A DNA stretch of 51,025 nt, from positions 1-51,025 of IMG/VR virus record IMGVR_UViG_3300042402_007312; one strand, 5' to 3'. Source of the stretch: a virus. A program made the position numbers and the translations under genes. Position 1 is the stretch's first letter. Each line of letters begins with the position of its first letter. Below, piece by piece: positions 3,291 to 46,045 of the stretch. Under the pieces are notes generated by a model. The model had not been told where the DNA came from. It saw only the letters and a list, made by a program, of their open reading frames with translations, and ran no database searches.

Positions 3291-3300
3291 TTATTTATTA
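3291..3300 (-). promoter_or_regulatory. Late-promoter-like box TAATAAATAA
   Basis: On the minus strand this reads TAATAAATAACAAAAAC, 21-30 nt before the ATG of the 743-aa gene. It resembles the T4 late promoter TATAAATA used by gp55, and a gp55 homologue is present at 29535-29954. Identical boxes precede the genes starting at 23289 and 29493. Confidence 0.6.
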
Positions 3301-23308: not shown

Positions 23309-23318
23309 TTATTTATTA
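23309..23318 (-). promoter_or_regulatory. Late-promoter-like box TAATAAATAA
   Basis: The minus strand reads TAATAAATAACAAAAAATAG, 20-29 nt before the ATG at 23289. It is nearly identical, with the following CAAAAA, to the boxes at 3291-3300 and 29509-29518. The remaining bases of the gap 23319-23382 show no ORF or clear hairpin. Confidence 0.6.
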
Positions 23319-29508: not shown

Positions 29509-29518
29509 TTATTTATTA
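29509..29518 (-). promoter_or_regulatory. Late-promoter-like box TAATAAATAA
   Basis: The minus strand reads TAATAAATAACAAAAAGCC, 16-25 nt before the ATG at 29493 and just after the gp55 gene. It would drive the start of the large virion block. Confidence 0.6.
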
Positions 29519-29534: not shown

Positions 29535-29954
29535 TTAGATAGTGTAGATTTCGCTCTCTCCGGAATGGCTTAGGGAAATCGTTACAATCTTTTCGCCTTT
29601 TCCTATGTGCTTATAAATCTTCTTGTATTCTTTAGCGTAACCGTTCTTTGCAATTTGGGTAAAGTAGGCAAATGCATTATTGGATTTTTCTTCATTAAAG
29701 TTTCTCCAATATCTTAAAAGATCAAGTAGAGCAGATTGAATACAGTCTTCTCGATCTAGTGGATTTTGAAACTTTAATTTTTGAATAGCCCGATTAGCTA
29801 AAAGGATAAAATAATCAATTGCCTTTGGAGAAAGTTCTCCCTTTGTGTGCTGATAACCTGTTTCTTCATTTAAGAGACCGTGTTTGCAGCGGATAATTTC
29901 ATTTGTGAAGTCTTTATTATTAATATAGTACTTCGGGTCTTTAATTCTTGCCAT
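29535..29954 (-). CDS. 55: Late-transcription sigma factor, T4 gp55-like
   Basis: This 139-aa protein resembles T4 gp55, the sigma-70-family factor that directs host RNA polymerase to late promoters. The N-terminus (DPKYYINNKDFTNEII) parallels the start of T4 gp55. Residues about 43-118 form a sigma region 2 core: NPLDREDCIQSALLDLLRYW, then RNFNEEKSNNAFAYFTQIAK and a basic KKIYKHIGKG. It is shorter than T4 gp55 (185 aa), and no clamp-binding hydrophobic C-terminal tail is obvious (it ends SHSGESEIYTI). The start ATG overlaps the stop of the resolvase gene by 1 nt. TAATAAATA boxes elsewhere in the window fit its expected target. Confidence 0.85.
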   Translation of the reverse strand: MARIKDPKYYINNKDFTNEIIRCKHGLLNEETGYQHTKGELSPKAIDYFILLANRAIQKLKFQNPLDREDCIQSALLDLLRYWRNFNEEKSNNAFAYFTQIAKNGYAKEYKKIYKHIGKGEKIVTISLSHSGESEIYTI

Positions 29955-31613: not shown

Positions 31614-33206
31614 ATGTCAAAGACTATAATTTTTGATGCTGATGCAAGAAACCGACTTAAAGTTGGAGTTGATACATTAGCAAATTCAGTAAAAGTAACA
31701 ATGGGTCCAGGTGGACGTAATGTTGTTATTGCAAGAGACGGCGGATTAGCTGTTACAAAAGACGGAGTTTCTGTTGCTAGAGAGGTTGAGCTATCTGACC
31801 ATATTGCTGACGTTGGTGCTCAAATGGTAAAACAAGTTGCGCATAAAGTTGCACAATTAGCAGGTGATGGAACTACCACTGCAACTGTATTAACTCAAGA
31901 AATTTTTAATCGTGGACTTAAAGCAGTTGCAACTGGAGCAAATCCAATTGAATTAAAAAGAGGAATGGACTCTGCTTTATCTGAAGTAGTTGAGGCCCTA
32001 TCTCAATCTGCGATTCCAGTTAAAGATCTTACCCATATCCATCAAGTAGCCACAATTTCAGCAAATAATGACGAATCAATGGGTTCGTTAATTACTAAAT
32101 GCATGGAAGCAGTTGGTTTTGATGGTATTATTACAGTTGAGCAAAGTAAATCAGCTGAAACTTATGTTGATATTGTAGAAGGAATGCAATTTAAATCCGG
32201 TTACTTATCACCATATTTTATTAATTCTAATGAGAAACCTCAAGTTGAGTTTGAAAATGCATTAGTATTATTAGTTGACGGTAAAGTTTCTGTCCTAAAT
32301 GATATTGTTCAATTTTTAGAATATTCAAATCAAAAAGGACGCCCGCTTTTAGTTATTTCAGAAAGCGTAGATGGTGATGCACTAAATACTATGGTTCTTA
32401 ATAAATTACGTGGAACAATTAAAGCAGCCGCAGTAAGAGCTCCTGGTTTTGGTGAATTACGTAAAGAAAATCTTGATGATATTGCAATCCTAACTGGTGC
32501 AAAAACAGTCTCTGAAAGAGAAGGTTATACGCTAAGCGAAACAATTGCTTCAGAAGTATTAGGTTCAGCAACTAAGGTTATTATTACAGCTGAATCTACT
32601 ACTATTATTGGTGGAGAAGGCGATTCTGAATCAATTAAAGAACGTATTTCAGATATTAATGCTCAAATTGAAAACAGCACAAACGAATCTGCTACTTTAA
32701 TTCTTAAAGAGCGTCTTGCTAGATTAGATGGTGGCGTTGCAATTATTAAAGTTGGAGCCCATTCTGAAATTGAAATGCGTGAAAAAATAGATCGTATTGA
32801 CGATGCAATTGGTGCAACCAGAGCAGCGGTTGAAGAGGGTATTGTTGTAGGTGGAGGGGTTGCTCTTTGTAAAATTGCTGAAACTCTTAGACCAACAATT
32901 GATGCTACTCCAAACTTTGAGCATAGACTAGGCCGTACAATACTATTGGAATCTTGCTTAGCGCCATTCCAAGTAATCTTAAATAATGCCGGAGAGTCTC
33001 CAGATGCAGTTCTTGCGCAAATGAAGAATCTTGGTAAAGAATATAACGTTAAAGCTAGAGAATATTGTAATTTTATTGAATCTGGTATTATCGATCCTGT
33101 AAAAGTTACCAGAGTTGCACTAGAGAATGCAGTTTCAATTGCCTCTATGATGTTAACTACTGAATGTTTAATGGTTCAGGATAAAACTACAGAAACTAAG
33201 GCTTAA
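31614..33206 (+). CDS. groEL: GroEL-type chaperonin
   Basis: This 530-aa protein matches bacterial group I chaperonins over its full length. It has the ATP-binding segments VTMGPGGRNVV, TKDGVSVAREVEL (D50) and AGDGTTTATVL (D85), the hydrolytic aspartate in IDDAIGATRAAVEEG (D397, equivalent to E. coli D398), and VVGGGVAL. The apical region and the C-terminal MMLTTECLM are also present. It lacks the Gly-Gly-Met tail of E. coli GroEL, which is common outside proteobacteria. A GroES is encoded at 45731, so the phage may carry a complete folding machine, perhaps for its very large virion proteins. The leader TATTTAAAAAGATAA has no Shine-Dalgarno sequence. It is intact, with no frameshift. Confidence 0.97.
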   Translation: MSKTIIFDADARNRLKVGVDTLANSVKVTMGPGGRNVVIARDGGLAVTKDGVSVAREVELSDHIADVGAQMVKQVAHKVAQLAGDGTTTATVLTQEIFNRGLKAVATGANPIELKRGMDSALSEVVEALSQSAIPVKDLTHIHQVATISANNDESMGSLITKCMEAVGFDGIITVEQSKSAETYVDIVEGMQFKSGYLSPYFINSNEKPQVEFENALVLLVDGKVSVLNDIVQFLEYSNQKGRPLLVISESVDGDALNTMVLNKLRGTIKAAAVRAPGFGELRKENLDDIAILTGAKTVSEREGYTLSETIASEVLGSATKVIITAESTTIIGGEGDSESIKERISDINAQIENSTNESATLILKERLARLDGGVAIIKVGAHSEIEMREKIDRIDDAIGATRAAVEEGIVVGGGVALCKIAETLRPTIDATPNFEHRLGRTILLESCLAPFQVILNNAGESPDAVLAQMKNLGKEYNVKAREYCNFIESGIIDPVKVTRVALENAVSIASMMLTTECLMVQDKTTETKA

Positions 33207-33253: not shown

Positions 33254-36200
33254 TTGTCAGAAATCGACATTCTTATTGAACAAATTAGATGTGAGCTAAA
33301 AGAGAACCCCTTCTTTACGGAAGGGGATCTTGCTGCTTTAGATGAGTGTCTACCGACCTCAGATCAAATAGAAGCTGCTCAAAAGGAGCAAATTTCTGAT
33401 ATTGTTACCGAGGATCCTTGTGCAAAAAAGACAATTGATGCAGTAAATGCTGAATTGGAAAAAAATGATGCTAAACTTAAAGCTGCAGTCAAAGCAAAAT
33501 ATGTAATTTCCAGACTTCAAGAACTTAAGGATCTATTATTTCCAGCTGAATTTTTCTATAAAACTCGAGAAGAGTTCTTTAACTTATTGATTAAAGACTT
33601 AGATCAAAGATTTACCACCCCAAATACAAATCTTTCCACCAGCTTTACGCAAATTCTAAATAAGTATGAAATCAATTCATATAAATTTAATGCAGTAGCA
33701 ACCACTACTACAATTTCCGCAATAGACCAACTAAATAAAGATATTAAAAAGCAGGTCGAAGATTATTTTAGTAAAAAAACAATAGGTATTGGAAGTATTG
33801 GCAGCACTGATCCAATTACCTATGCATATAACGCAGCAAATCCAACATTTTCAATTAGTCTACCTGGAAAGGACGGTTTTACCATTAAATCTTCAGAAAA
33901 TCAAAAAACGGGTAAAGTTGATGCATTAGGAAATGCTGAAACCAAACAGGTTGAAGTTAATGTTAAGATTTTACCAGAAGATTCAGTATACGAAACTAAA
34001 AATACAGTTTTTCAGGCTAGACCTTTAAAACTGGTTAATATTACTTCTCAAAAATATTCTGACAAATCCTCAACTGATAATCTTTATCCATTTAAAGGTC
34101 TTCTTGCGGAATTTTACAAGAAAATTGAAGATCCTCTTGCACTATTTACACTCCAAGAAAAAGGCTTAACCACAAATTCTGCTAAAGTTGATAAAAATTT
34201 AACTAAGGAGAAACTAGACGGAATAGTTAAGGAAAAAAGAGCAGATGGCAGAGAAGAACAGTTTTATATTGAAAATACCGAAAGGTACCAACAGTTTTAT
34301 GAAAATCTTGAGCCTAAAATCGAAAAACGAATTGAAGAAGAGCGTACTAAATTTAGAACTAATTTAATTTCATCTGGAAAATTTTTAAAATTAGCCGCGC
34401 TTGCTAAAAAACAGGTTTTTGAACTTGTTAATAAAGGCGAAATAACAACCAAACCTACAGAAAAACTTATTGTAAATGGAGTAACAATTGAACCATCTAC
34501 ATATAGTGGTGAAATTAGAACTAAAATTAAAAATAGTTCAGCTGAGGTTCTTGGTTTAATAAAAGATATTGATACTAGAATTGCTAAAATTAAAAAGGAC
34601 AATACGCCAAATCCAGATGATTTAGCAAAGTCTTTAGCTGCAACCGGCTGTGTTCCACCCGATCAAGGTCCATGTAAAGCTTTACCTAAACCTGGAGCGG
34701 ATCCACTTGGTTATAAGTCAATGACAGTTCCGCCGACTGCAGCAAACCCAGATTATACTTGCGGCTGCTATTGGAAAGAAGTCACTAAACACTTAAATAA
34801 ATTAAATCTACTTCCAATCCCAGATATAATGCGGCTTCCTGCATTAAGGTATTGGCCAGTTGGATTAATTATCCCAACACCAGTTCCAATTAGAATTCCA
34901 CTTCCACAAATTTGGTTTCATATTGTAACTTTAAATCTTCCATTTGGAACACTCGTTATTTGGTATATCCAATGCGGAATCGTGCCATCTCCAATTGTAA
35001 TGTATATTGGACCAGATGGTAAAAAGATTATCTTATTAAGTTTTAGAGCTTTACAAGGTCAATTTGATCCAGTTGGTTATACAATAGATGAAGCTAGTGT
35101 TGCTCCACTTGGAATTAACCAAACTTCAATTGGAAAACCTAGCGGAACTGCCGCAAAGACTATTACTTTTGGTAATATTATGGTAAATGCTAAATTACAA
35201 AAAGCTGCAAAAATTGCAGCGCAGGCACAAGCACTATTAGAATTAGCTGACCCAGGTAAATTAATGCCAAATGGATTTAATATTCCATTTAAACTTGGAG
35301 AAAATCCAAGCTGGAAAACTGGAGACGAAGACTTTTTAGATACTGCTGCAACTGCTCTTACTGATTTTAAAGTATTTGTTCAAAATATTAGTCGAACAAT
35401 TTGCGTTAAAATTGATGAACTTGGAGATTTTGAATTACCTAATTTTTCAATTGCACTAAGGAGCGCACAAGAGGCCGCTGCTAATAGACAAGCTATTTTA
35501 AGTGGAGTTCCATATTCATTTGATGATGCTTGGTTAAACTGTGATCCAAACAACCTTTATTCAAATGTTCCAGCAGGGTTTTCAAACGTTAATACTGATG
35601 TTAACTCAGCTGCATGTAAAGAAATGGTATTATCACTTTCACTAGATCTGGATAAATTTTTAGATAAAATTAAACTAGGGACCTATACTATTCCAAAGGA
35701 AAAGGGCAAATCTATTAAACCTGAGGCTATGCTAGATGGACTAATAGATTCTGTTATGGAATATATGTCAAGAACAAATTTTGGAAAGGCTAAATCCATT
35801 AACTTTAACAAGAAATTCAGGAAAGCCATGCGAGATCTTGATTTAAATGCCGAAATTGATAAACTTTCCGTAACCGTTGACTTATCTAAACTTGAAAGTG
35901 TTACCGCATTTAAGAAAACAGCTAAAGGCTATGTTGATCAAATTTGTGATGTTTTTTCAGGTAAAAATGTTAAGGTTAATACCAAATCTCCAGAATTTAT
36001 ACGAAAAGTTGACGCTGAAATTGCAAAACGCAAACGATTTAATGATCGAAATGCTGAATATGATAAAAATAATGCAAAGCAGGCAAAACGCGTTCAAAAT
36101 TATGAAAAAAGTATAGGTAAGGAGACTCCACGGTCTCTACCTACAGATAGAGCAATTGTTGAAAAATATGTATATGATGCAGAGGTTAGAAAAAGAAAAC

Positions 36201-37288
36201 GCTTTGCTGAAATTCTAGGCCAATCGATTGCTGGCTTTACTAAACCAATTAAAGATGCATTAGGTAATTTCACACAAATTGTAAAACCTAAGTGCTGCCC
36301 AAGCGAATTAAATATTCCTCAATTTATAGATCCACTTGTACTTGCAATTATTATGTCGTTTAGACAACTAGCACATACTGCGATTGATGCCCTAACTACA
36401 GATTTGCTTAAATCAATATTTGGAGAAGTATTTAGCGTAACTAAAGAAGTTATACAATCTATCACAAATCTTATTGCTAAGAATATACCAGATATTGATA
36501 TTCCATTAAATGGGGCAGCCGCTCTGCAACTTCTATTAGGAATATTAAAGCCATTTTTACCGCTATTAAGAATTCCATTAGGACCTCTTCCTAGAACATT
36601 AGGAGTTCCTCAACTAAGTTTAAATTTAGATTCAATTATAAAACCTTTGTTAAAGGCCGGAATTCAAATCTTAATGGATAAAATATTAAGTTTTCTTCCA
36701 ATTAGAATTTGTGATTTACCAATTACTGCAATATCCTCCGCTTGGATTTCTGCTCTATATAGAGGAATAAAATCTGCTCTTAAAAAAGCAATCGTTGAAT
36801 TAATTGAAACTTTACTTGAGCCACTACAAACCCTATTTAAATTAATAAACCTGTTAAAAGGTGTTAAAGGCGCGTTTACTTCTCTATTCGATATGACAAA
36901 TCCTTTTCTCAAGATTTATAAAATGATTAAAGAGGCACTGGAAAGATCTCTACCTACCCCAATGTTTATTAAAACAGTTAACCAATTAATTCTTTTAGCT
37001 CAACTTGAAATATTAAAAGCCCTAGATAAAGCTGCTAAAAATTTACCAGAAATTGCAGTGTATTTACCAATTGCAGCAGGTCAGTCATTAGGTCTTGGTA
37101 ATATCTTAAGAGCAGGGGTCCATCCTATTCTAAACCAAGACGATCTTCCAACTTGGGATAGATTAACCATGAAGAATCCTCTTTATGTAATGTTTTTAGA
37201 TGACCTGGCCCATAAAGCAAAAGCTGCAACCGGCTCCATTTTGGGACAAGATTTTATTGGTACCCCAGTGTATGTTCCTACCCCATAA
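33254..37288 (+). CDS. Large protein of unknown function (1344 aa), hydrophobic C-terminal third
   Basis: The best start is TTG at 33254 (protein (M)SEIDILIEQIRCELKENPFF); no in-frame ATG exists nearby upstream. The N-terminal 470 residues are charged and helical with coiled-coil character. Residues about 520-610 are unusually rich in Pro and hydrophobics (MRLPALRYWPVGLIIPTPVP, then IRIPLPQIWFHIV). Residues about 760-1010 are charged and helical. From about 1085 to the end there are many hydrophobic and amphipathic helices (LQLLLGILKPFLPLLRIPLG). I do not recognise the family. Tape-measure, hub or membrane-interacting roles would fit the composition, but it lies between GroEL and an RNA-binding gene, away from the virion block. 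The length is intact. Confidence 0.75.
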   Translation: MSEIDILIEQIRCELKENPFFTEGDLAALDECLPTSDQIEAAQKEQISDIVTEDPCAKKTIDAVNAELEKNDAKLKAAVKAKYVISRLQELKDLLFPAEFFYKTREEFFNLLIKDLDQRFTTPNTNLSTSFTQILNKYEINSYKFNAVATTTTISAIDQLNKDIKKQVEDYFSKKTIGIGSIGSTDPITYAYNAANPTFSISLPGKDGFTIKSSENQKTGKVDALGNAETKQVEVNVKILPEDSVYETKNTVFQARPLKLVNITSQKYSDKSSTDNLYPFKGLLAEFYKKIEDPLALFTLQEKGLTTNSAKVDKNLTKEKLDGIVKEKRADGREEQFYIENTERYQQFYENLEPKIEKRIEEERTKFRTNLISSGKFLKLAALAKKQVFELVNKGEITTKPTEKLIVNGVTIEPSTYSGEIRTKIKNSSAEVLGLIKDIDTRIAKIKKDNTPNPDDLAKSLAATGCVPPDQGPCKALPKPGADPLGYKSMTVPPTAANPDYTCGCYWKEVTKHLNKLNLLPIPDIMRLPALRYWPVGLIIPTPVPIRIPLPQIWFHIVTLNLPFGTLVIWYIQCGIVPSPIVMYIGPDGKKIILLSFRALQGQFDPVGYTIDEASVAPLGINQTSIGKPSGTAAKTITFGNIMVNAKLQKAAKIAAQAQALLELADPGKLMPNGFNIPFKLGENPSWKTGDEDFLDTAATALTDFKVFVQNISRTICVKIDELGDFELPNFSIALRSAQEAAANRQAILSGVPYSFDDAWLNCDPNNLYSNVPAGFSNVNTDVNSAACKEMVLSLSLDLDKFLDKIKLGTYTIPKEKGKSIKPEAMLDGLIDSVMEYMSRTNFGKAKSINFNKKFRKAMRDLDLNAEIDKLSVTVDLSKLESVTAFKKTAKGYVDQICDVFSGKNVKVNTKSPEFIRKVDAEIAKRKRFNDRNAEYDKNNAKQAKRVQNYEKSIGKETPRSLPTDRAIVEKYVYDAEVRKRKRFAEILGQSIAGFTKPIKDALGNFTQIVKPKCCPSELNIPQFIDPLVLAIIMSFRQLAHTAIDALTTDLLKSIFGEVFSVTKEVIQSITNLIAKNIPDIDIPLNGAAALQLLLGILKPFLPLLRIPLGPLPRTLGVPQLSLNLDSIIKPLLKAGIQILMDKILSFLPIRICDLPITAISSAWISALYRGIKSALKKAIVELIETLLEPLQTLFKLINLLKGVKGAFTSLFDMTNPFLKIYKMIKEALERSLPTPMFIKTVNQLILLAQLEILKALDKAAKNLPEIAVYLPIAAGQSLGLGNILRAGVHPILNQDDLPTWDRLTMKNPLYVMFLDDLAHKAKAATGSILGQDFIGTPVYVPTP

Positions 37289-37312: not shown

Positions 37313-37318
37313 TATAAT
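37313..37318 (+). promoter_or_regulatory. Possible -10 box TATAAT
   Basis: GGTATAATAT lies 26 nt before the ATG of the S1-domain gene. No convincing -35 element is seen. Confidence 0.4.
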
Positions 37319-37344
37319 ATTTTAGATTATTCAAATTTAAAAAT

Positions 37345-38523
37345 ATGACTTATACCAACGAAGAACTTGAATTTATTTTTGCACAAGGAAATGCAAAGGT
37401 AAACAAAGCTGTTAAATTAACTGCTGCTGATAAAAAAGCCGGTGTTAAAATTTTCTGTAAAGAACCGTACGCTCAAGAGATGTACGATCGTTATTTTAGC
37501 TCTGAAGCAGGCCATCCAATGCCAGCTGGAAATAAAGATATTCCAGTAGGAGAAATTAGAACTGTTAGCATTAAGAAAATTGACTTTGCGATGTCAATGG
37601 TAGAAATGGAAGATGCGTCAACTATGACAAGTATCTTTGTTCCATTTAGAGAATTTTCACAAGAACCTTCGTTAAGTCTTTTAAATGAAGATAAAGATCG
37701 TAAATACAAAGTTATGATCTATAAATCAAATATGAGCGAGATTCTAGGTTCAGAAAAACGTTGTGCGGCTCTTACCCTTAGAGAAGACGTTGAATACTTT
37801 GCTAAAAATAATAAGTGGTTCTACGTTAAAGTGGTTGAACTTATTAAAGGTGGTTACCTTGCAATCTATAAAAACCAAATCAAATGTTTCCTTCCAGGAT
37901 CACATGCTGCAGCTAACGTAATTAGAGACTTCTCTGAATACTTGCACAAAGAAATTCCAGTTATGGTTGAAAACTTTGATTCAGTTAATAACTTATTCAT
38001 CGTTTCATACAAGAAATACATTAAGGAAACTCTTCCTCAAAAAGTATCTGATCTTTCATTTGGTCAGAAATATACAGGGACTCTTACCAATAATCCATAC
38101 GATTTTGGAGTCTTTGTTGAATTCCAAAACTACTATACAGGACTTATACACAAGTCAGATTTTGAAAATGACGCAGCCTTTAGAGAATTTAGTAAAGGTT
38201 TACGTTCAGGCGATCAAATTGACTTCTGGGTTAAAGACGTTGTACAGAAGAAAGGAGATTATCGAATTATACTTACAGTAAATCCGGAATCAATCGATCC
38301 AGTTAAGAAAAGCTGGCAAAGCCTTAAAGATGGCATCGAGGGTCAAACTCTAGAGTACTCTTATGAAAAGGGTTCTATGAAAATGACTCTACCTGATGAA
38401 CAAACCATCTCTGTTTCAGTTTCATCTCAAGTAATGCAAGGCCGTTCAGCCGAAGGCCAAGTATTAATTCAAAAAGTTGATGTTTTGAAGCAAAATTTAG
38501 GGTTCGAGATACTAGGTAATTAA
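37345..38523 (+). CDS. S1-domain RNA-binding protein, ribosomal protein S1-like
   Basis: This 392-aa protein has two S1 (OB-fold) domains. Domain one covers about 158-223 (YVKVVELIKGGYLAIYKNQI, CFLPGSHAA). Domain two covers about 236-312 (GQKYTGTLTNNPYDFGVFVE, then YYTGLIHKSDF and GDQIDFWVKDV). A degenerate third S1-like unit may lie at about 66-126. This is the tandem arrangement of ribosomal protein S1, shortened from the usual 6 domains. S1 binds mRNA and helps the 30S subunit start on leaders lacking a strong Shine-Dalgarno sequence. Here it may favour phage mRNAs; acting as an RNA-stability or transcription factor is an alternative. It is preceded by a TATAAT-like box. Confidence 0.85.
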   Translation: MTYTNEELEFIFAQGNAKVNKAVKLTAADKKAGVKIFCKEPYAQEMYDRYFSSEAGHPMPAGNKDIPVGEIRTVSIKKIDFAMSMVEMEDASTMTSIFVPFREFSQEPSLSLLNEDKDRKYKVMIYKSNMSEILGSEKRCAALTLREDVEYFAKNNKWFYVKVVELIKGGYLAIYKNQIKCFLPGSHAAANVIRDFSEYLHKEIPVMVENFDSVNNLFIVSYKKYIKETLPQKVSDLSFGQKYTGTLTNNPYDFGVFVEFQNYYTGLIHKSDFENDAAFREFSKGLRSGDQIDFWVKDVVQKKGDYRIILTVNPESIDPVKKSWQSLKDGIEGQTLEYSYEKGSMKMTLPDEQTISVSVSSQVMQGRSAEGQVLIQKVDVLKQNLGFEILGN

Positions 38524-38693: not shown

Positions 38694-39656
38694 ATGGAAC
38701 CGATTCTAACTGAGAATCCGAACAGGTTTGTCATCTTCCCTATCCAGCACCATGACCTTTGGGACTTCTACAAAAAGTCTGAAGCGTCTTTCTGGACAGC
38801 AGAAGAAATTGACTTAGCCGCGGATCTAACTGACTGGAGAACTAAACTTAACGACGAAGAGCGTTATTTTATTAAAAATGTTTTAGCTTTCTTTGCCGCA
38901 TCTGACGGTATTGTAAATGAGAACTTGGCTGAGAATTTTGTGAGAGAGGTACAATACCCCGAAGCTAAATTTTTCTATGGTTTTCAAATTATGATGGAGA
39001 ATATCCATTCTGAAACATATTCTCTTCTTATTGATACGTATATTAATGATGAAGAAGAAAAAGCAAAATTATTTAACGCAATTGATACAATCGATGCTGT
39101 TAAGAAAAAGGCTCAATGGGCGCTAAAATGGATTAAGAGCGATTCTTTTGCAGAACGCCTAATTGCATTTGCCGCAGTCGAAGGTATTTTCTTTTCTGGT
39201 TCGTTTTGTTCAATCTTTTGGTTAAAGAAACGTGGTCTGATGCCAGGTCTAAGCTTCTCAAACGAGCTTATTTCAAGAGACGAAGGTATGCATACAGACT
39301 TTGCCGTACACTTACATAATAATCATATTGTAAATAAAGTTTCTGAAGCAAAAATTAAAGAAATTATTCTTTCTGCTTTGGAAATCGAAAAAGAATTCAT
39401 TACTGAGTCTCTTCCAGTTAGACTCATCGGTATGAATGCTGATCTAATGAAGCAGTATCTAGAATTTGTTACTGATAGATTGCTTCTTGACTTAGGTTGC
39501 AGTAAAGAGTTTAATGTTCAAAATCCATTTGACTTTATGACTAATATTGCACTTAAAGGAAAAACTAACTTCTTTGAAAAAAGAGTTGGTGAATACCAAA
39601 AGGCCGGCGTAAAATCTGCAATTGTGCAAGATTTTTCTACCGATGAAGATTTTTAA
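38694..39656 (+). CDS. nrdB: Ribonucleotide reductase small subunit (R2), class I
   Basis: This 320-aa protein makes the diferric-tyrosyl radical used by NrdA to reduce ribonucleotides. Iron ligands are visible: D44 (DLAADLTDW), E102 and H105 (MENIHSE), E163 (AVEGIFFSG), E197 and H200 (SRDEGMH). The radical tyrosine is Y109 (HSETYSLL). The C-terminal tail DFSTDEDF matches the peptide that docks on R1. The overall sequence is close to eukaryotic R2 ([29 protein letters not shown]), a type shared with Bacteroidota; that taxonomic reading is inference. It lies 5 nt after the small ORF and 19 nt before nrdA, so it is one operon. It would supply dNTPs for phage DNA. Confidence 0.98.
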
Positions 39657-39675
39657 AAAATAGAGACACAAAAAA

Positions 39676-42084
39676 ATGAAGGTTACAAAAAGAGATGGCT
39701 CGTTAGAGACACTAAAACTAGATAAGATCACCAACCGTATTAAAAAACAAACATACGGTTTAAATTTAGATTTCGTAGATGCCCTAGAAGTTGCAACTAA
39801 AGTTGTAGCTGGTATCTATGATGGAATTACTACAGTTGAACTAGATAATTTAGCTGCTGAAACTTCAGCTTCTTTAAATCACGTACATCCAGATTATTCA
39901 TATCTTGCGGCTAGGGTTGCAATTACCCGATTGCACAAAACCGTTAGCAAGAAATTTTCAGAAGTAATTGAGGCTTTATATTCATATACTGATCCAAAAA
40001 CTGGTCTTCCAGCTGGATTAATTAATGACGATGTAATTAAAGCAGTTCGTAAACACGCCGATATTTTAAATGAATCTATCTTACACGATAGAGATTTTAA
40101 TTTTGATTACTTTGGATTTAAGACTCTAGAAAAGAGTTACCTACTTAAGATTAATGGTCAAACTGCCGAAGCTCCTCAACATATGTACATGAGAGTTGCA
40201 GTTGGTATTTGGGGAGATGATATTCAAAATGTTCTAAAGACATATGAGTTATTATCTACTCATAAAATGACCCATGCGACTCCTACCCTATTTAATGCTG
40301 GAACAAAAAGACCTCAATTATCTTCTTGTTTCTTGTTAACTATGCAGGAAGATTCTATTCAAGGAATTTATAAAACTCTTTCTGATGTTGCAGCAATTTC
40401 ACAAAATGCAGGCGGTATTGGATTAGCGATTCATAATGTTAGAGCAACCGGTTCTTATATTAAAGGAACAAACGGTACTTCCAATGGAATTGTTCCAATG
40501 CTTAAAGTATTTAACGAAACCGCCAGATATGTTGATCAAGGTGGTGGAAAGCGTAAAGGTTCATTTGCAATTTATCTTGAACCTTGGCATGCTGATGTTG
40601 AGGATTGGTTAGATCTTCGTAAAAACCATGGTAAAGAAGAGCGTCGTGCTAGAGATCTTTTCTTAGCACTATGGACTCCAGATTTATTTATGGAAAGAGT
40701 TGAAGCTGACGCAGATTGGACTCTATTTTGTCCAGCCGAAATTGGTGTTGAACTTTGGGAAATGCACGGTCAAGAATTTAAAGATAATTACGAAAGACTT
40801 GAAAGAGAAGGAAAGGGTCGCCGTACAATAAAAGCAAGAGCTCTTTGGCAAAAGGTATTAGAATCTCAAATTGAAACAGGCACACCTTATATTCTTTATA
40901 AAGATGCAGCAAATGAGAAATCTAACCAAAAAAATCTAGGTACAATTAAGTCTTCTAACTTATGTACAGAGATTATGGAATACACAAGTAAAGATGAACA
41001 AGCTGTTTGTAACTTAGCTTCAATTGCAGTTAATCAATTTATTAAGTTTCCAGAAAAAAGATCTTTAAAACAGCGTAGAGCCCATGCAGAGTACGATCAC
41101 CAAGCACTATACGATGTTACATATCAAACTACCCTAAATCTTAACAAAGTAATTGATATTAATTTCTATCCAACTCCAGAGACTAAAGCTTCTAATATGA
41201 AGCATCGTCCAATTGGAATAGGTATTCAGGGAATGGCAGATACGTTTGCAATTTTAGGTTTACCCTTTACATCAGATGAAGCTAAGAAATTAAATGAAGA
41301 TATTTTTGAAACAATTTATTTTGCGTCAATGAAAGCTTCAGCAGATCTTGCTAAAAAACTTGGAGCATATGAATCATTTGAAGGAAGCCCATTAAGTGAA
41401 GGTAAATTCCAATTTAATCTTTGGGGCTTCGAAGATTCTCAGCTTTCAGGCAGATGGGATTGGTCAGCACTTAGAAAACAAGTTATGAAAACTGGTGCTC
41501 GCAATTCTTTATTGTTAGCTCCAATGCCGACTGCATCCACTGCTCAAATCATGGGTAATAATGAAGCGTTTGAAGCATTTACCTCAAACTTGTATACTAG
41601 AAGAACCCTTTCTGGAGAATTTGTTATTGTTAACAAACATCTAGTACGAGACCTAGTTGAGTTAGACCTATGGTCAGATAATTTAAAAAATAAAATTATC
41701 ACTGAAAAGGGATCAATTCAAAATATTGCAGAAATTCCAGTTGAAATTAGAGAAATCTATAAAACTGTATGGGAATTAAAGCAAAGAGAAGTAATTGATA
41801 TGTCCGCCGACCGTGGTAAATTTATTTGTCAATCTCAATCACTTAACCTTTTTATTAAGGATGCAAATGCTGCAAAATTAACTTCTGCTCATTTTCACTC
41901 TTGGAGAAAAGGCCTTAAGACTGGTATGTATTATTTAAGAACAGAATCTGCGGTTGATGCTATTGCTGGTCTTGGAGTAGACTCTGCTGCACTAAAGCAG
42001 TCAACTCTATCTACTGAACAAATCCAAAGTGATCTAGTTTGTTCGCTTGATAATCCAGACGATTGCATTGCCTGCTCTTCTTAA
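39676..42084 (+). CDS. nrdA: Ribonucleotide reductase large subunit (R1), class I
   Basis: This 802-aa catalytic subunit has an N-terminal ATP-cone (about 1-90, MKVTKRDGSLETLKLDKITN), so dATP feedback is likely. Active-site residues are C218 (LSSCFLLTM) and C445 (AVCNLASI) as the disulphide pair, and N428, C430, E432 (NLCTEIME) with C430 as the thiyl. The radical-transfer tyrosine pair lies in TGMYYLRT. The C-terminal C797-x-x-C800 (DDCIACSS) passes electrons from thioredoxin or glutaredoxin. Residue numbering follows the human enzyme almost exactly. No reductant protein is seen in this window. The leader is A-rich (CACAAAAAA) without Shine-Dalgarno. It works with NrdB and dUTPase. Confidence 0.98.
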   Translation: MKVTKRDGSLETLKLDKITNRIKKQTYGLNLDFVDALEVATKVVAGIYDGITTVELDNLAAETSASLNHVHPDYSYLAARVAITRLHKTVSKKFSEVIEALYSYTDPKTGLPAGLINDDVIKAVRKHADILNESILHDRDFNFDYFGFKTLEKSYLLKINGQTAEAPQHMYMRVAVGIWGDDIQNVLKTYELLSTHKMTHATPTLFNAGTKRPQLSSCFLLTMQEDSIQGIYKTLSDVAAISQNAGGIGLAIHNVRATGSYIKGTNGTSNGIVPMLKVFNETARYVDQGGGKRKGSFAIYLEPWHADVEDWLDLRKNHGKEERRARDLFLALWTPDLFMERVEADADWTLFCPAEIGVELWEMHGQEFKDNYERLEREGKGRRTIKARALWQKVLESQIETGTPYILYKDAANEKSNQKNLGTIKSSNLCTEIMEYTSKDEQAVCNLASIAVNQFIKFPEKRSLKQRRAHAEYDHQALYDVTYQTTLNLNKVIDINFYPTPETKASNMKHRPIGIGIQGMADTFAILGLPFTSDEAKKLNEDIFETIYFASMKASADLAKKLGAYESFEGSPLSEGKFQFNLWGFEDSQLSGRWDWSALRKQVMKTGARNSLLLAPMPTASTAQIMGNNEAFEAFTSNLYTRRTLSGEFVIVNKHLVRDLVELDLWSDNLKNKIITEKGSIQNIAEIPVEIREIYKTVWELKQREVIDMSADRGKFICQSQSLNLFIKDANAAKLTSAHFHSWRKGLKTGMYYLRTESAVDAIAGLGVDSAALKQSTLSTEQIQSDLVCSLDNPDDCIACSS

Positions 42085-44622: not shown

Positions 44623-45734
44623 TGAATATAGTAATTGATGGAAATGCTTTTCTTAACGTATCCGCTTCTATTGTCAAAAACATGTTACAAAAAGACAAAA
44701 GAATCGGTGAAAAGTACTTTGTCAATGACTTATTGGATGACAGCAAGTTTATGCTAAAACAGCAAGCTGCTGTAACATTTAGAAATTTTGTTATCAACTA
44801 CTTCAGCTCCATTGTTTCTCCGTTCAAGGGAAGCGCTGGAGCTGTTTTTTTCGTTTTTGACTCAAAGAGCTGGAGAAAAGAATATATCAAACAATTCTTT
44901 ATTACAGAAGAGGACAGAAAAGACGATCAATTTGAATACAAGGGTAATCGAAAATACGACGATAAAATCTATCTTTTCTTTGAATTATTTCAAAATGAGA
45001 TACTATCGGATCTAAAGGAAATGGGAGCAGCGTCTTCTAGAATACTTGGAGCAGAAGGCGATGATTTAATTGCACATATCGTTGATAATTTTGAAGGTGA
45101 CATTTGTATTTGGTCAGTAGATAAGGATTTAATTCAATTGCTAGAAAGCGGTAAGCGCTCAGTTATATTAGTTACACCAAAAATGATGACTAAAAATAAA
45201 AGAGTGTTTGTTGCGCACAAGAAGCAAGAAGAAGCCACAATTGATATTTTTAATTTTGAGTCAGCTGTTGATAATTCTAATATTGACGAACTTCTTAGAG
45301 AATTTACTCAAAGAGATTTTGTTAAATATGAAGTAGATCCATCAGAGGAACTTATGTTAAAGGTATTAGGTGGCGATCCATCTGATGCAATTCCTAGAGT
45401 CCATCCAAAGATGACAAAGTCTAAGATTGAAGCTGTAATTTCTAAACTTAAAGAAAATGAAGGGGATTGGTCAATCCTTGTTCATAAACTAAGAACCAAT
45501 GATCCTTATGTAAAGGATATGATTGTTGAAGCTAGTACAAAGGAACTTAAATTAACTACCCAAGAGCTACAGGATCAATTCAGAAAGACCTTAGACTTTA
45601 ATATTAAGATCATATGTCTTTCAATAGATCATGTCCCTGCGAAGCTCTCTGGTTCAATCCGAGAGTCGTTTGACTTTAACTCTATAAAGAGATTTGACAT
45701 TAACTCATTTAAAAAATATCATTCTACAAAATGA
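44622..45734 (+). CDS. rnh: RNase H / 5'-3' FEN-type nuclease (T4 rnh-like)
   Basis: This 370-aa flap nuclease removes RNA primers and 5' flaps from Okazaki fragments. The acidic residues of the FEN/5' nuclease fold are present: D6 (VIDGNAF), D80 (FVFDSKSW), E145, D147 and D148 (GAEGDDLI), D167 and D169 (SVDKDLI), D252 and D255 (GGDPSDAIP). The basic arch residues K107 and R110 lie in YKGNRKYDD. It is longer than T4 RNase H (305 aa). The last 60 residues probably bind gp32 or the clamp by analogy. The ATG overlaps the upstream stop by 1 nt, and its own stop overlaps the groES start by 4 nt (ATGA). Confidence 0.9.
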   Translation: MNIVIDGNAFLNVSASIVKNMLQKDKRIGEKYFVNDLLDDSKFMLKQQAAVTFRNFVINYFSSIVSPFKGSAGAVFFVFDSKSWRKEYIKQFFITEEDRKDDQFEYKGNRKYDDKIYLFFELFQNEILSDLKEMGAASSRILGAEGDDLIAHIVDNFEGDICIWSVDKDLIQLLESGKRSVILVTPKMMTKNKRVFVAHKKQEEATIDIFNFESAVDNSNIDELLREFTQRDFVKYEVDPSEELMLKVLGGDPSDAIPRVHPKMTKSKIEAVISKLKENEGDWSILVHKLRTNDPYVKDMIVEASTKELKLTTQELQDQFRKTLDFNIKIICLSIDHVPAKLSGSIRESFDFNSIKRFDINSFKKYHSTK

Positions 45735-46045
45735 ATTCACCAATAATCCCAATTTATGATCGAGTTGTTATTCAACCCGATGAACAAAATAAAAAAACTG
45801 AAACTGGTATAATTCTTCCGCCTGATACCAGAAAGCGTTCCAATAGTGGAACTGTAATTTCAGTAGGCGGCGGAATGGAAAGACCTATTCCATTGGAACC
45901 AGGCGATAAAGTAATCTATCAACGCCATGCTGGAATTGATATGCAATGGAATGGCGAAAACTATTTAGTAGTTCTTGCGCATGAAGTTATTGCTAAAATT
46001 GTAACAGATTCGGTTCCAACTTTTCTTGAACCAGGGGAAAGATAA
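45731..46045 (+). CDS. groES: GroES-type co-chaperonin
   Basis: This 104-aa protein follows GroES in its strand order: PIYDRVVIQPDE, the mobile loop with the GroEL-binding tripeptide IIL (KKTETGIILPPDTRKRSNSG), GTVISVGGG, LEPGDKVIYQR and a closing VVLAHEVIAKI. It is closer to bacterial GroES than to the divergent T4 gp31. It would cap GroEL and, with the phage GroEL, form a complete system. The two genes are 12.5 kb apart rather than in a groESL operon. It is coupled to rnh through an ATGA overlap and is the last gene before a strong terminator. Confidence 0.92.
   Translation: MNSPIIPIYDRVVIQPDEQNKKTETGIILPPDTRKRSNSGTVISVGGGMERPIPLEPGDKVIYQRHAGIDMQWNGENYLVVLAHEVIAKIVTDSVPTFLEPGER

Follow-up and report, generated by a model that had tools for sequence, protein, structure and literature searches.

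The window analysed here is the whole 51-kb record, and its plus strand carries at 37345..38523, starting with ATG, a gene for a 392-aa protein related to ribosomal protein bS1, as recognized by Pfam, phmmer, profile search, AlphaFold2 and Foldseek. It is preceded by an A/T-rich leader, TAATATTTTAGATTATTCAAATTTAAAAAT (37315..37344, +), which holds no Shine-Dalgarno (SD) sequence. Upstream lie the genes of a GroEL-like chaperonin (31614..33206, +) and, directly before S1, of a 1344-aa protein with no convincing family match (33254..37288, +), and directly downstream follow NrdB and NrdA of ribonucleotide reductase (38694..42084, +), all of them conserved neighbours. The order GroEL, 1344-aa protein, S1, NrdB, NrdA, ssb is kept across the window's clade and also in most relatives at 43-57% identity, with two loci having no Nrd genes beside S1; the GroEL-S1-NrdB-NrdA order was not found around the S1 genes of Lak or huge phages. 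Even where its identity falls to about 25%, the 1344-aa protein of relatives is still found beside S1. A GroES-like protein is encoded as well (45731-46045), 12.5 kb from the GroEL-like gene, and the two flank the DNA-metabolism cluster.

The ORF is a real gene under strong constraint, with a dN/dS of about 0.04-0.11 against orthologues that are 87-95% identical. Among these, OB2 (see below) is 99-100% identical and thus nearly frozen, while OB4 and the N-terminus are more variable.

Concerning the phage itself, the label T4-like given in a previous, sequence-only reading is right only in a loose sense, since its sheath and ribonucleotide reductase genes are closest to those of huge and Bacteroidota phages and not to those of T4. 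The tail sheath finds its nearest relatives in huge phages, Lak, Flavobacterium MaF61 and Tenacibaculum phages; NrdA shares 57% identity with its counterpart in Tenacibaculum phage pT24. Taken together with the FDW motif of the S1 family and with close relatives whose bS21 is of Bacteroidia type (Tyr54), both described below, these affinities make a Bacteroidota host likely. A separate observation is that on the minus strand, at 3291-3300, 23309-23318 and 29509-29518, structural genes are preceded, at a distance of about 13-30 bases, by the T4-late-promoter-like TAATAAATAA(C); the window also encodes a sigma-70 region 2 protein (29535-29954), which could be a gp55-like late factor, and in a close relative (G001) TAAATAAC lies ahead of 14 out of 103 genes (0.8 expected). 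Counted window-wide with one mismatch, the late-promoter-like motif shows no enrichment.

Domain architecture and RNA-contact residues

The likeness to ribosomal protein S1 noticed in the sequence-only reading is borne out. The Pfam S1 family (PF00575) matches with E=2.6e-7 and 31.3 bits (cut-off 22), phmmer retrieves E. coli bS1 from the PDB with E=3.5e-14, and a family profile built on 36 relatives aligns colinearly with E. coli bS1 (E=3e-27, residues 20-260), domains 1-3 appearing in order. The AlphaFold2 model, obtained from a 36-row alignment of family loci, shows a helix and four OB folds joined by flexible linkers (mean pLDDT 81, pTM 0.51). When this fold is compared with the PDB by Foldseek, bS1 in 30S/70S complexes ranks first (9gut_B, E=7.9e-17), and among viral models (BFVD) the best match is A0A6J5NIG6 (37% identity over 385 columns, TM 0.76), a member of the same family from an uncultured Caudovirales phage, whose name "30S ribosomal protein S1" is an automatic annotation only. 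The PHROGs scan of the protein gave no match. Traits of PNPase, NusA or RNase E/R, i.e. a catalytic or KH domain beside a single S1, are absent, PF00575 being the sole Pfam family matched, and bS1 ranks above PNPase and NusA in both sequence and fold searches. The ORF encodes a bS1 homologue, which is more than a mere S1-domain protein.

All domains are given on the plus strand. An N-terminal helix (residues 43-52; 37471..37500), identified by AlphaFold2 and alignment, is the putative counterpart of the uS2-binding helix of bS1 (contacts from PMC10123108). It is followed by OB1 (residues about 71-136; 37555..37752), supported by profile and AlphaFold2; by OB2 (about 158-221; 37816..38007), the most conserved domain according to profile, AlphaFold2, alignment and dN/dS, which bears the KGGY...FLPGS signature of the mRNA pocket; by OB3 (about 242-311; 38068..38277), backed by Pfam, profile, AlphaFold2 and alignment; and by the fast-evolving OB4 (about 335-390; 38347..38514), seen in structure prediction only. 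The two tandem S1 domains formerly placed at residues 158-312 correspond to OB2 and OB3, so that the protein has four OB folds and not two. E. coli and Bacteroidota bS1 have six, OB5-OB6 being absent from the phage protein; since domain number ranges from one to six among bacteria (PMC6705787), four OB folds do not exclude bS1 membership. Moreover, Duval et al. (PMC3858243) showed for E. coli bS1 that OB1-OB3 are both required and enough, with a stimulating effect of OB4 and a limited one of OB5-OB6, and the viral protein retains exactly OB1-OB4, matching the part that is needed there.

D'Urso et al. (PMC10123108) describe an E. coli 70S structure in which mRNA is held by the OB2 residues K117, F120 and F130, and uS2 is contacted by F5, Q7, F9 and E10 of the bS1 helix and by K43. 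The mRNA-holding positions correspond to K168, Y171 and F182 in the phage protein, with Lys in 34/34 family members, an aromatic residue in 34/34 (Phe once in place of Y171) and Phe in 34/34, and the domain-2 signature KGG...FLPGS is present in the window protein as K168, Y171, F182, P184, G185 and S186. As this 34-member alignment was picked by tblastn, the conservation of K168, F182 and P184 is unconditioned in it. In OB3, F254, F257, H269 and R307, which we take to be the RNA-contact positions of S1 domains, are invariant in all 34 members. With both the OB2 pocket and the OB3 RNA-binding residues conserved, the likeliest role is in initiating translation.

On the uS2-facing side, the position of F9 is occupied by Tyr in 33 of 34 phage and 10 of 13 cellular proteins (Y50 in the window protein), and that of Phe5 by Leu or Met (here M46). 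E. coli K43, which enters the zinc pocket of uS2, aligns with M94, in a loop where the alignment is uncertain; Lys is found at this position in 7/34 phage rows; it is retained by 5 of 7 huge-phage proteins but gone from the window's clade. With K43 lost and Phe5 replaced, docking on uS2 may be weaker or different.

Finally, the comparison of 67 distinct phage with 101 distinct cellular sequences yields eight OB2-OB3 sites that are near-fixed in phages and different in nearly all cells: N191, V206, M207, T248 and T265 are fully fixed in phages, and A188, K224 and E259 nearly so. It should be noted that this set was chosen by the OB2 signature, which conditions the conservation of K168, F182 and P184 within it.

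Phylogeny of the phage S1 family

IMG/VR holds 222 loci that encode relatives, and further homologues come from Lak phages and from 462-735 kb huge phages, namely the uncultured LR756500, LR745206, LR756501, LR756502 and LR756504, which, judging by kind and size, are presumably among the genomes of the huge-phage survey of Al-Shayeb and coworkers. The maximum likelihood tree of OB1-OB3 places 35 phage rows on one side of a 100/100 branch, apart from 14 cellular bS1, and long branches leave the order within the phage clade unsure. Judged by this tree, the phage S1 proteins form one monophyletic family, separate from all cellular bS1 sampled. A scan of genome contigs retrieved distant cellular bS1 only, the closest at about 30% identity, hence no recent donor is seen. 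The matches H24-H27 and H30-H32 were left aside, H30 and H31 being annotated as rpsA and bacterial-looking; H20 turned out to be an IspH-S1 fusion of bacterial type.

An old origin is suggested by an F[DNE]W motif on the N-terminal side of OB1. It is present in 18 of 37 phage proteins and in 15 of 30 Bacteroidota bS1 sampled from GTDB, compared with 1 of 73 in a mixed bS1 set, that one being from Bacteroidota too. The window protein and its subclade have lost it. The motif's presence in Bacteroidota bS1 and in about half of the phage proteins points to an early derivation of the family from a Bacteroidia-type bS1. With cellular bS1 (rpsA) of this type the phage proteins share the colinear domains 1-3, FLPGS and the RNA-contact residues, and about half of them the motif too; they differ from it in domain number, in the low best identity, in their separate clade and in the eight phage-specific sites.

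Viral bS1 genes have been known since Al-Shayeb et al. 2020 (PMC7162821) described S1 proteins in huge phages, together with rare SD sequences and a proposed role in initiation, and hence the earlier supposition that such a factor was undescribed is wrong for phages in general. The huge-phage S1 proteins sampled are homologous to the one studied here and fall in the same 100/100 clade, but the window's member comes from smaller jumbo phages (217-271 kb contigs) with a gene order of their own, and is only 22-23% identical to its huge-phage homologues. Other phage-encoded ribosomal proteins for which replacement of the host copy has been proposed are the bS1 of cyanophage PhiMa05 (PMC13157829) and phage bS21 (Chen 2022, PMC9723584). 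The ribosomal proteins of PhiMa05 group with those of its Vampirovibrio host, making the acquisition visible, whereas the present family is old and divergent; bS21 is likewise found in near relatives of the window. What is new is the monophyly of the phage family, its eight specific OB2-OB3 residues, the Bacteroidia-type N-terminal motif in half of its members and the co-occurrence of bS21 and tmRNA in two relatives.

These two relatives (142 and 217 kb contigs) are close, the S1 protein of the 142-kb one differing from the window's by a single residue. Their bS21 genes (L027:1629-1823 and L037:12788-13012, both on the minus strand; 64-74 aa across both loci) adjoin a Nudix-like gene and retain Tyr54, by which Bacteroidia ribosomes keep the anti-SD hidden. 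Within the phage panel bS21 is confined to S1-positive phages, though not to all of them. The tmRNAs match Rfam RF00023 with 104.6 bits (L028:3997-4463, G005) and 97.4 bits (L038:16455-16924, G001). The tag printed by ARAGORN was rejected, as another frame ends in LAVAA; the plausible tag frame ends in EDAMSFVGADLAVAA and a stop.

Shine-Dalgarno sequences and the host phylum

The scarcity of SD sequences in the window, already noticed from its starts, is confirmed by counting, with the same gene caller throughout, how often AGGA, GGAG or GAGG occupies the SD region. Only 1 of the 28 ORFs of at least 100 aa carries a core (4%; shuffled expectation 2%), compared with 52% of genes in T4 (shuffled 12%) and 16% in crAss001 (shuffled 8%). 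Two near relatives show 7-8%, and Lak-A1, LR756500 and LR756502 0-4%, S1-positive genomes overall ranging from 0 to 8%. The same range is however found in pT24, PTm1, MaF61, PAU, MA9V-1 and phiST (0-6%); five of them have Bacteroidota hosts, and for PAU the host named is Sphingomonas. In the whole records of these six, neither the family profile nor Pfam finds an S1 gene. Bacteroidota hosts themselves do without SD (PMC6847099, PMC9976891), their ribosomes hide the anti-SD (PMC9976891) and their starts show a preference for A at -3, -6 and -12/-13 (PMC6847099), positions near which phage leaders, too, are rich in A. Hence, SD-lessness reflects the host phylum rather than the S1 gene, it is no evidence for the function of that gene, and the correlation between S1 and missing SD reported for huge phages by Al-Shayeb et al. 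is confounded by host phylum, which weakens the argument drawn from it in the literature.

For the window, G005 and G001 the leaders have their A-rich peak at -14 to -19, and for other Bacteroidota phages at -11 to -13. This upstream shift was rejected as an effect of S1, since the remaining S1-positive phages have the peak at about -12, just as S1-negative ones do.

Possible roles of the phage protein

The sequence-only reading proposed a factor of translation takeover. Its SD argument falls with the S1-negative phages that are equally SD-less, while the part that stands is a bS1 relative with conserved RNA residues in OB2 and OB3. The explanation we consider best, and rate as moderately probable, is a viral bS1 that would dock on the host 30S and help the initiation of phage mRNAs; docking, exchange with host bS1 and preference for phage mRNA are what we infer. 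The protein would represent the initiation-working part of bS1, an anchor-like helix followed by OB1-OB4, with OB5-OB6 left out. Docking on uS2, by the helix and OB1, would replace host bS1 or take place beside it. OB2-OB4 would form a lining of the mRNA exit channel that keeps unstructured A-rich leaders in place while the AUG settles, thereby allowing phage messages to load well where ribosomes make no use of SD pairing. The viral bS21 of close relatives would occupy the adjacent 30S site. In F. johnsoniae, bS1 raises initiation on one SD-less mRNA (PMC9976891). Counting against this mechanism, related Bacteroidota jumbo phages manage without an S1 gene.

S1 proteins have many non-ribosomal roles, and host S1 serves both T4 RegB and Q-beta replicase. 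The phage protein could accordingly be an RNA chaperone or cofactor away from the ribosome, e.g. in the stability of phage mRNA, RNA processing or replication, and the missing uS2 zinc-pocket lysine and the position of its gene within a DNA- and nucleotide-metabolism cluster fit such a role, as does the wording of Al-Shayeb et al., who allowed action "on or off the ribosome" (PMC7162821). Such an RNA binder, however, would need just OB3-like domains, while the ribosome-side half of bS1 (helix, OB1 and OB2) is kept in full, with OB2 under the strongest constraint, and close relatives carry bS21 as well, all of which renders this role rather unlikely.

We regard as quite improbable a dominant-negative competitor that fills the bS1 site and shuts off host messages while giving no help to phage translation. 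The absence of OB5-OB6 and the eight sites unlike nearly all sampled cellular bS1 would suit it, but the canonical RNA-contact residues are retained, OB1-OB4 suffice for initiation in E. coli (PMC3858243), and phage leaders are SD-less like those of the host phylum (PMC6847099), so that a pure block would hit the phage too. The notion that S1 lets the phage dispense with SD sequences, a version of the earlier reading that draws on S1-positive genomes without SD here and in Al-Shayeb 2020, is very hard to sustain, being largely refuted by the six S1-negative phages and by a host phylum that itself lacks SD.

Returning to the viral bS1 on the host 30S, a bolder version, possible but doubtful, is that an old, purely viral bS1 lineage, joined in some phages by bS21 and tmRNA, rebuilds the Bacteroidia mRNA exit channel so that phage messages beat those of the host although both are SD-less, the phage-only OB2-OB3 residues being the determinants of selectivity. 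Bacteroidota initiate without SD pairing, and the question is by what means a phage could give its messages precedence there. A viral bS1 that is compact and has few phage-specific residues, accompanied by bS21 in some relatives, makes this question testable in F. johnsoniae translation systems, where the point of interest is whether the phage-only OB2-OB3 residues confer message preference.
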